From contig NZ_CP099997.1 of assembly GCF_024138145.1 (NCBI RefSeq), forward strand, positions 3,286,001 to 3,350,000: a stretch of DNA of 64,000 nt. The letters are read 5' to 3'. Below the pieces are notes generated by a model. The model searched no databases and was not told the origin of the DNA. It saw nothing but the letters and a program-made list of their open reading frames with translations. Within the stretch, counting starts at the first letter, position 1. Every line of letters begins with the position of its first letter. Shown here one piece after another: positions 19,383 to 21,978 of the stretch. This stretch comes from Natronosalvus halobius (GTDB lineage Archaea; Halobacteriota; Halobacteria; Halobacteriales; Natrialbaceae). The position numbers were made by a program, and so were the translations under genes.

Positions 19383-20624
19383 TTAGCGGATGACGTCGAC
19401 GCCGTTGTTCCGCTCGACCTGGTCGCGGCCGCCGTCGCTCTGGGCACCGAAACTCGAACTCGAGCCCGAGTGGGAGCGCGAACTCGAGCGACGCCCGCCC
19501 GAACCCCGCTCCTGTGTCTGCGAGACGTTCTGACTCGCGTCGAAGTCCGCCTCGGTCACGCCCTCCAGGCTGGCGCGGGATTTGTCGGCCTGTTTCTGCG
19601 TACTCGGGCCGAGCACCTGCGCGCTCTGGACGCCGGTCATGATCGCCATGACCCGCACCTTGCCCTTGTAGCTCTCCTGGATCCGGGCGCCCCAGATCAC
19701 GTTCGCCGAGGCCTCGAGGCGCTCGGTGATGTTGTCGGCGATCCCCTCGGCCTCCTTCAGCGTGAGGTCGGGGCCGCCGGTAATGTGGACCAGTCCGCCG
19801 GAGGCGCCGCGATAGTCGACGTCCAATAGCGGATGGTTCATCGCGTCGCGGACGACCTCCTCGGTCTTGTTCTTGTCCTGGGTCTCCCCCACGAGCATCA
19901 CCGCGACGCCGCCCTGATTCATGATCGTGGACATGTCCGCGTAGTCCAGGTTGATCAGGCTCGGCTGGGTGATCGTCTCGGAGATGCCTTTGACGGTCTC
20001 GGCGATGATCTGGTCCATCACCGAGAACGCCTTCCCGATCGGCAGATTCGGGACGTAATCGAGCAGCCGGTTGTTGTCCAGGACGATGATCGAGTCGGCC
20101 TGCTCGCGCAGCTTCTCGAGGCCTTCCTCGGCCTTGACCGTGCGGGCGCGTTCGACGTTGAACGGCGTCGAGACCATCCCGACGACGATGGCGCCCTGTT
20201 CTTTGGCGATCTTCGAGGCGACGGGTGCGGCACCGGTGCCGGTACCGCCACCCATGCCGGCCGTGACGAAGACGAGGTCCGCGTCTCCGAGGACCTCCTT
20301 GATCGTACCCTGGGCCATCTCGGTGGCACGCTCGCCCATCGAGGGGTCGCCGCCGGCACCCAGTCCGTTCGTGAGCGACTTGCCCACGAGGATTTTGGTG
20401 TCGGCCTCGATCATCTTCAGGTGCTGTTTGTCGGTGTTGATCGCGATGGTCTCCGCGCCTTCGACACCGATGTTGTACAGCCGGTTGATCGTATTGTTAC
20501 CGGCTCCACCGCACCCGATGATGACGATCCGGGGCTCCCCGAACTCGTCGTCATCGAGGGACCCGTCCATGTTCTTGGCCTCTTCCTCCGCGTTTTCGAG
20601 GGCGTCTTGCACGATGTCCTGCAT
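19383..20624 (-). CDS. ftsZ2: Cell division tubulin FtsZ2
   Basis: A 413-aa FtsZ. The GTP-binding residues are present: GCGGAGNNT near the N-terminus, the tubulin signature [10 protein letters not shown], and the catalytic T7 loop NLDYADM (NxDxxD). The extended N-terminus [20 protein letters not shown] and the position beside cdrS identify it as FtsZ2, the paralogue required for constriction in Haloferax, rather than FtsZ1. After the globular domain comes a Ser/Gly-rich linker and a conserved C-terminal peptide (NNGVDVIR) of the type that binds SepF. The start lies 2 nt after the cdrS stop, so the two genes form a tight operon controlled from the region upstream of cdrS. Confidence 0.96.
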
Positions 20625-20626
20625 CG

Positions 20627-20806
20627 TTACACCTTCGCCCAGCCGCGTTTACCCGGCTGTTCGTGGCGACCCTCGTACTGGTCGTTGATCATTTCTCGGA
20701 CGGCCGAACGGATAGCTTCACTCCGGTTTGGAAACTCCCCCGTCTCGACCAGCTGTTCGACTTCTTCGATCTGCTGTTTCGGAATTCGCAGTGTCACACG
20801 CTCCAT
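20627..20806 (-). CDS. cdrS: CdrS, short ribbon-helix-helix cell-division regulator
   Basis: A 59-aa gene read directly from the sequence: [20 protein letters not shown], then [20 protein letters not shown], ending in a short basic tail (KRGWAKV). The N-terminal strand VTLRIP and two helices with the N-R-S-E-A-I-R turn form a canonical ribbon-helix-helix DNA-binding fold. Position 2 nt upstream of ftsZ2 and the RHH fold match CdrS, shown in haloarchaea to control ftsZ2 and other division genes. The ATG at 20806 is the only plausible start. It is cotranscribed with ftsZ2 and probably acts at the repeated heptamers upstream (inference). Confidence 0.93.
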
Positions 20807-21021
20807 TATTGTATTCCCCGTATTGGGTAAGACGGTGCGCGCCCCTGTCAGACGCGGCGTGTCTTACACGTCGAATCGGCCGCATTCGGGCGATTCCCGG
20901 GTGACTTCCACCCGCTGTAAGACAACCGTCTTACGCGACTGTAGCCAACAGGCTGGTGGGTATTAAAACTATCGGCGACGGTGACCGTCCATGTCTTACA
21001 ACAGTGTTGCTTGTATGACGG
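20807..21021. promoter_or_regulatory. cdrS-ftsZ2 promoter region with five GTCTTAC/GTAAGAC sites
   Basis: The heptamer GTAAGAC or its complement GTCTTAC occurs at 20827-20833, 20861-20867, 20917-20923, 20928-20934 and 20993-20999. The third and fourth form an inverted pair with a 4-bp spacer, and the second sits in a larger palindrome (CGTGT-CTT-ACACG, 20858-20870). A minus-strand TATA-like TTTTAATA at 20962-20969 lies between site five and the pair, giving a likely start near 20936 and a leader of about 130 nt. Repeated short inverted heptamers suit ribbon-helix-helix dimers; CdrL and CdrS flank the region. Confidence 0.7.
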
Positions 21022-21025
21022 TCAC
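20981..21025. repeat. 9-bp perfect inverted repeat across the cdrL stop
   Basis: GTGACCGTC (20981-20989) and GACGGTCAC (21017-21025) are exact complements, with a 27-nt loop that contains one GTCTTAC site. The right arm covers the cdrL stop codon. It could form the 3' end of the cdrL transcript or part of an operator complex. Confidence 0.5.
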
Positions 21026-21642
21026 GACTGATTCGACTCGAGCACGTCCGCTGCCGGCGTTCGACGGCCACAGCTCGGGCAGAACGCCCAGTCCGATCGC
21101 ACCTCGTCCCCGCAGTCACAGAAGACGCGGTGGGTTGCCTTCTCCCCGCAGTTGGGGCAGAAGACGTGTTCGGACTCGAGTCCCGTTCCACACTGGCCAC
21201 ATGCGCTCGCGCCTCGAGCGGGACGGTCCTCGACCGAACGCGCCGGCTGATCTCGCGTCGAGCCGTTCGAGGTGCCTGTGTGGTCGGCCGCGCGCGTCTC
21301 CTCATCCATTGCTGGAGCGGGAGTGAATTCGGTCTCGCGTGCACGCGTCGCCTCGACGCCCTCGAGCGCGATGGAGACGTTGACGTCCTGGCCGCTCGAC
21401 GACTGACGAGCGGACAATCGCCGCTCGAGTAGGGAGTCGATCCGTTCCTCGAGCAAGGCGTCGAGGCTGTCGTCCGGAGCGTCGGCGCGAGCGTCGTCGG
21501 TCGGACGGGCGTCGACACCGTCTGTCGGCTGCTCGTCCAGGAACGCTCGGAGTGCCTCGCGCATGACCTCGCTCTTCGAGGCATCGAAGGCCTCGAGTTC
21601 GGCGACGAGGTCGTCGTCCGCGCGGAACGTGATCTTTCCCAT
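21022..21642 (-). CDS. cdrL: CdrL, ribbon-helix-helix regulator with zinc ribbons
   Basis: A 206-aa protein. The N-terminus GKITFRADDDLVAELEAFDASKSEVMREALRAFL is a ribbon-helix-helix DNA-binding unit. A long acidic, Ala/Arg-rich linker follows. The C-terminus has two zinc-binding modules: CGQCG...FCPNCG and CDCG...FCPSCG. This layout and its location upstream of cdrS-ftsZ2 match CdrL, the long cell-division regulator of Haloferax. A minus-strand TATA-like TTATAATATGG at 21661-21671 stands about 20-28 nt before the ATG, so the transcript is probably leaderless. A palindrome related to the cdrS-region sites lies further upstream at 21706. Confidence 0.92.
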   Translation of the reverse strand: MGKITFRADDDLVAELEAFDASKSEVMREALRAFLDEQPTDGVDARPTDDARADAPDDSLDALLEERIDSLLERRLSARQSSSGQDVNVSIALEGVEATRARETEFTPAPAMDEETRAADHTGTSNGSTRDQPARSVEDRPARGASACGQCGTGLESEHVFCPNCGEKATHRVFCDCGDEVRSDWAFCPSCGRRTPAADVLESNQS

Positions 21643-21705
21643 GGTCGATTCAGTTACCGACCATATTATAACTCATCCTATATGAAACTTCCCACGCGTC
21701 CGACG

Positions 21706-21718
21706 CGTGTCTCACACG
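21706..21718. promoter_or_regulatory. CGTGT-CTC-ACACG palindrome upstream of cdrL and tRNA-Tyr
   Basis: A perfect 5-bp-arm inverted repeat that differs in one central base from CGTGT-CTT-ACACG at 20858-20870 in the cdrS promoter region. It lies about 35 bp upstream of the cdrL TATA-like box and about 15 bp from the tRNA-Tyr TATA-like box. It may be an autoregulatory site for CdrL. Confidence 0.5.
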
Positions 21719-21766: not shown

Positions 21767-21840
21767 CCGCTCTTAGCTCAGCCTGGTAGAGCAGTCGACT
21801 GTAGATCGACTTGCCCCCCGTTCAAATCGGGGAGAGCGGA
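21767..21840 (+). tRNA. tRNA-Tyr (GTA anticodon)
   Basis: A 74-nt cloverleaf. The acceptor stem CCGCTCT pairs with AGAGCGG, with discriminator A at 21840. The D-arm contains AGCTCAGCCTGGTAGAGC. The anticodon stem GTCGA/TCGAC encloses the loop CTGTAGA, giving anticodon GTA. The T-arm is CCCCG-TTCAAAT-CGGGG. No intron is present and the CCA end is not encoded. A TATA-like CCCTTATACC at 21732-21741 lies about 26 nt upstream of the first base. Confidence 0.97.
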
Positions 21841-21978
21841 CTTCTTCGTCGAGCGGATCACGTTCGACCGACAGGAGCGATTTCGATACCACGTCGAGAC
21901 GTTGCTCCCGAAAATGACTGCTCGAGTGCTCTCCTCCGTATCCAGGAGCTACGTTTTTCAGATGAACGTTTACGACGA

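Follow-up and report, generated by a model that had tools for sequence, protein, structure and literature searches.

The cdrS-ftsZ2 operon of Natronosalvus halobius is preceded by five exact copies of the heptamer GTAAGAC or its complement GTCTTAC, clustered in a promoter whose array is almost invariant across haloarchaea. We consider it fairly probable that this array is a ribbon-helix-helix (RHH) operator ancestrally read by CdrS, encoded by the operon's first gene, and that CdrL was added as a reader in haloarchaea. Under this explanation the array would be an autoregulatory switch that sets the FtsZ2 dose. All coordinates refer to the window, that is, the whole 64,000-nt stretch that was analysed.

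The heptamer array and its neighboring genes

On the minus strand of the window, the gene order is cdrL, a gap of 215 bp, cdrS and ftsZ2. The second gene of the operon, ftsZ2 (19383-20624), is an ORF of 413 aa that matched the Pfam families Tubulin (9.4e-45) and FtsZ_C (9.1e-36). The first gene, cdrS (20627-20806), encodes a 59-aa RHH regulator with an RHH_1 match above the cut-off (2.5e-08), and cdrS matches were present in 192 of the 195 genomes of the order. On the other side of the gap, cdrL (21022-21642) encodes 206 aa, with the N-terminal RHH strand KITFRAD and a C-terminal double zinc ribbon (Pfam DZR, 1.3e-07; CdrL_M, 4e-4, below the cut-off). No Pfam RHH match was found in the window copy of CdrL, though its RHH strand is conserved. 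As would be expected of an RHH array, RHH proteins are thus encoded next door, CdrS by its Pfam match and CdrL by its strand. The CdrS strand M-E-R-V-T-L-R was invariant in an alignment of seven sequences, and K3, I4, T5 and R7 of CdrL were invariant in sixteen. A tRNA-Tyr gene lies divergently at 21767-21841, upstream of cdrL.

Five exact heptamers within 173 bp had been claimed in an earlier sequence-only reading, and all five were confirmed. Heptamer 1 (20993-20999, plus strand; GTAAGAC in the cdrS sense) is situated 5′ of the TATA box, at -193. Heptamers 2 and 3 form the core inverted pair GTAAGAC-N4-GTCTTAC (20917-20934), with one arm at 20917-20923 (minus strand) and the other at 20928-20934 (plus strand), across the predicted start site. 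Heptamer 4 (20861-20867, plus strand) sits in the palindrome CGTGTCTTACACG (20858-20870), and heptamer 5 (20827-20833, minus strand; GTCTTAC in the cdrS sense) is 27 bp 5′ of the cdrS ATG. The 4-bp spacer of the pair and the palindrome were also described correctly by that reading. A sixth and related heptamer, the CdrS-type variant GTCAGAC, lies within the array at 20847-20853, in the leader. In 20,000 dinucleotide shuffles of 20807-21021, the mean was 0.03 copies and the maximum two, so the array is indeed non-random. The minus-strand TATA-like sequence TTTTAATA is likewise present, but at 20961-20968, one base below the 20962-20969 given earlier. As the TATA box of cdrS-ftsZ2, it is a conserved TTTTATTA-like word at a fixed distance. 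Transcription would start in the region 20935-20941 (minus strand), some 30 bp away from the first base of the TATA box.

The heptamer is not over-represented in the window (6 copies vs 4.5 expected), and the 3.85-Mb genome has 79 copies, compared with 108 of a reversed-word control. With this background frequency, a GTAAGAC regulon elsewhere in the genome was rejected. The genome-wide scan for heptamer clusters that had been proposed with the sequence-only reading returned a single cluster, at the cdrS-ftsZ2 promoter; outside the array, no two genomic copies were nearer to each other than about 800 bp. The abnormality of GTAAGAC is its clustering only, not its frequency.

Conservation and geometry of the promoter

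The promoter sample comprised loci from whole-genome searches and 80 loci of named records. Counted over genomes that are related by descent and not phylogenetically independent, as is also true of the promoters below, GTAAGAC-N2-7-GTCTTAC was present once, and only once, in 180 of 195 haloarchaeal genomes; for the good genomes the count was 155 of 157. A control pattern was found in two of the 195 genomes of the order. Outside the order, in the same phylum, the pair was at background (3/204 genomes) and the control pattern was commoner. Conservation in orthologous promoters, the point on which the sequence-only reading had staked its claim, was borne out across haloarchaea. Among 161 distinct promoters, the core pair was present in 157 and a site 18-34 bp 5′ of the ATG in 152; mid-leader sites were seen in 101, and 102 had a site upstream of TATA, in either orientation. 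Every one of them had at least two sites, and 126 had at least four. Over 162 distinct promoters, we counted 686 copies of GTAAGAC vs 6.0 expected. The only one-base variants clearly enriched in these were GTATGAC (12.5-fold), GTCAGAC (10-fold for this type) and GTAAAAC. The symmetric word GTANTAC, a candidate CdrL homodimer site, showed no enrichment in the 162 promoters and was rejected.

Two further observations were made in this sample. The Haloarculaceae-type gaps (L031-L045) have repeated CGTAAACG/GTTTAC words 5′ of the TATA box. The chromosome of Haloferacaceae archaeon XH8 has two cdrS loci (L058 and L059), one of them at a contig end; both have five-site arrays, possibly through duplication or assembly overlap.

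Counted downstream from the first TATA base, the distance to the core pair is 31-35 bp in 149 of 158 promoters, and therefore the pair should cover the transcription start. A 4-bp spacer was seen in 129 of the 158 and a 5-bp spacer in 25, which places the two heptamers 11-12 bp apart, centre to centre, in 154. A short word at a fixed helical pitch, a mark of RHH arrays, was thus seen in the core pair, as well as in the sister array described below. Strict 11-bp phasing was not found among the outer haloarchaeal sites, the spacings of which scatter. The omega, Arc and MetJ repressors also use short words at short regular spacing, with one RHH dimer per word; they are bacterial plasmid, phage or metabolic regulators, with no known link to a tubulin homolog.

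The pair is self-complementary and stands at the predicted 5′ end, so it might instead act as RNA, forming a 5′-terminal mRNA hairpin, with the leader sites as a second stem, that controls mRNA stability or translation. For ftsZ2, regulation at the post-transcriptional level has already been suggested (PMC8303175). We regard this explanation as very unlikely. The arms are invariant and identical, with no covariation, and the exceptions that we read break or weaken the stem, with no compensation. Promoters L015 and L057 have a flipped GTATGAC in place of the second arm, a change that would break the RNA stem and keep the protein site, and so supports an RHH operator. Leader sites disappear singly, and no known RNA family in Rfam matched. 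The hairpin was rejected on the broken-arm cases together with the untranscribed copies of the word 5′ of TATA in the 102 promoters noted above.

A sister word outside haloarchaea and at CdrS targets

Outside the order, the cdrS-ftsZ2 promoters (n = 17, L254-L270) have arrays of GTC[A/T]GAC at a strict 11-bp pitch, between TATA and ATG. They contain 36 exact copies of GTCNGAC vs 0.4 expected. When one mismatch was allowed, spacings of 11, 22, 33, 44 and 55 bp were counted 22, 30, 25, 11 and 14 times, respectively, and all other spacings were counted 0 or 1 times. No CdrL with an RHH part was found in the genomes outside the order that have this sister array; the CdrL profile gave zinc-ribbon matches only.

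Of the 18 sites that ChIP-seq of CdrS revealed in Haloferax volcanii, those at ftsZ1 and dacZ lie about 50 bp upstream of the start; hisB is another target (PMC8406309). In four other Haloferax species, we found GTC[A/G]GAC-N4-GTCTGAC in the ftsZ1 promoters, GTCAGAC in the dacZ promoters and GTCAGAC in two of the four hisB promoters. From these orthologous promoters, rather than from the published motif logo of PMC8406309, we infer that the CdrS word is GTC-N-GAC, one base off the array word. The CdrS sites are symmetric RHH sites, and the orthologous ftsZ1 promoters resemble the core pair in having two heptamers with a 4-bp spacer. They differ in that the putative GTC-N-GAC sites lie 5′ of TATA, whereas the GTA-A-GAC array is for the most part placed across the start and within the leader, with GTC-N-GAC represented only by the single GTCAGAC at 20847-20853. 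For the pair GTCAGAC-N-GTCTGAC, the count per genome ranged from 0 to 10, which would be expected for a regulon word and not for a single operator.

A CdrS-type heptamer pair, GTCCGAC-GCGT-GTCTCAC, is located at 21698-21715, in front of cdrL. At -75 to -35 of 144 distinct cdrL promoter regions, GTC[A/T]GAC was present in 76 vs 1.0 expected, and GTAAGAC was never present. GTC[C/G]GAC was found in 30 of the 144 (2.4 expected). The distribution of these words suggests that CdrS may control cdrL, and hence a CdrS-CdrL loop is predicted. In the CdrS ChIP list of H. volcanii, cdrL is not named (PMC8406309).

Candidate readers of the array

In Halobacterium salinarum, the only reproducible CdrL ChIP-seq site is upstream of cdrS-ftsZ2, at promoter resolution (PMC7439475). 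It falls in the promoter studied here. The main text of that study reports no motif; the present analysis newly describes the heptamers as an array, shows how widely they are conserved and finds that they remain where CdrL is missing. No published description of the operator or its motif was found in the literature searched, which was mostly without subscription papers.

Until the CdrL profile search, we favoured GTAAGAC as a dedicated CdrL word at a single locus, unused by CdrS. The lone ChIP site in Halobacterium matches the once-per-genome pair, and both CdrL (PMC7439475) and the GTAAGAC pair are restricted to haloarchaea. Moreover, the invariant CdrL strand K3-T5-R7 differs from R3-T5-R7 of CdrS, and the cdrS promoter is absent from the CdrS ChIP sites in Table 1 of PMC8406309. 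The profile search then revealed eight finished or near-finished haloarchaeal genomes of several lineages (L191-L197 and L045) without CdrL; their best matches were 2.8e-5 or weaker, and the positive control was 1.9e-60. On these profile matches, CdrL is not universal in haloarchaea, contrary to PMC7439475, according to which all Halobacteria encode it. On the FtsZ2 tree, the losses of CdrL amount to five changes, at least three of them forced by supported branches. A CdrL-dependent operator would be expected to disappear with CdrL, but the core pair and the leader site are intact in all eight genomes. As the array outlasts CdrL loss, CdrL alone cannot explain it. The phased sister array, present where CdrL is missing, also speaks against a word used by CdrL only, and we now think such a word unlikely.

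The sequence-only reading had assigned the array to CdrL and/or CdrS as an RHH operator. The CdrL ChIP peak, the phased sister array and the variant word at CdrS targets all support an RHH protein as the reader, and the choice of reader is narrowed, since CdrL by itself does not suffice. Together, the phased sister array without CdrL and the array that remains after CdrL loss suggest that CdrS was probably the original reader and that CdrL joined it later. Less probable still is that GTAAGAC is read by some unrelated factor conserved in haloarchaea. This idea would agree with lone heptamers elsewhere being at background, which leaves no regulon pointing to a known protein, and CdrS and CdrL are proposed here as readers from sequence comparison. 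Against it stand the CdrL ChIP peak on this very promoter (PMC7439475), the closeness of GTAAGAC to the CdrS-type word and the 11-bp geometry that they share.

The solved structures closest to CdrS are NikR proteins. The operator of Escherichia coli NikR is GTATGA-N16-TCATAC, with the half-site GTATGA (PMC7055735), and therefore an RHH dimer on an asymmetric word has a precedent. This half-site matches the enriched array variant GTATGAC, and the CdrS strand R3-V-T5-L-R7 resembles R-V-T-I-T of E. coli NikR. NikR differs in that it acts as a nickel-bound tetramer on half-sites separated by 16 bp; CdrS lacks a metal domain, and the spacing of the array is not that of the NikR operator.

In the explanation that we prefer, with CdrS as the ancestral reader, each heptamer (GTA-A-GAC) would bind one RHH dimer. 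Two of these dimers would sit on the core pair, across the start, with their centres separated by 11 bp or one helical turn, and more dimers would occupy the leader and the region 5′ of TATA. In most haloarchaea CdrL would also bind the array, as a later addition. We infer that CdrS reads GTAAGAC with one dimer per heptamer, as well as the start site and the sign of regulation. Since the sites cover the start and parts of the leader, negative feedback or damping would be the tentative choice for the sign. When cdrS was overexpressed in H. volcanii, FtsZ2 was about 0.7-fold (PMC8406309). In Halobacterium, deletion of cdrS lowered ftsZ2 1.3-2.2-fold (PMC7439475), a result at odds with simple repression. 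For H. volcanii, a monocistronic cdrS mRNA of about 250 nt has been reported, shorter than a 120-nt leader predicts, and this counts against our best explanation. The main evidence against CdrS as the reader is the missing cdrS promoter in the H. volcanii CdrS ChIP list. The one-base difference between the array word and the putative CdrS regulon word counts against it, too.

A one-base code may also be considered, although we hold it as a tentative and rather doubtful idea. GTC-N-GAC would mark the genes switched by CdrS (ftsZ1, dacZ and cdrL), and the asymmetric GTA-A-GAC, which forms a pair once per genome, would mark the operon's own promoter. CdrS and CdrL would read the latter jointly, as mixed or competing dimers, in a closed feedback loop on the FtsZ2 dose.

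How the dose of FtsZ2 is set in archaea is poorly understood, and the array would offer an exact, mutable operator for the division regulator that is most conserved in haloarchaea. Two words are separated for two circuits, and a link from CdrS to cdrL is predicted. The species without CdrL are a natural experiment to tell CdrS from CdrL. The conservation is high enough that experiments in H. volcanii or Halobacterium should transfer to the whole class.
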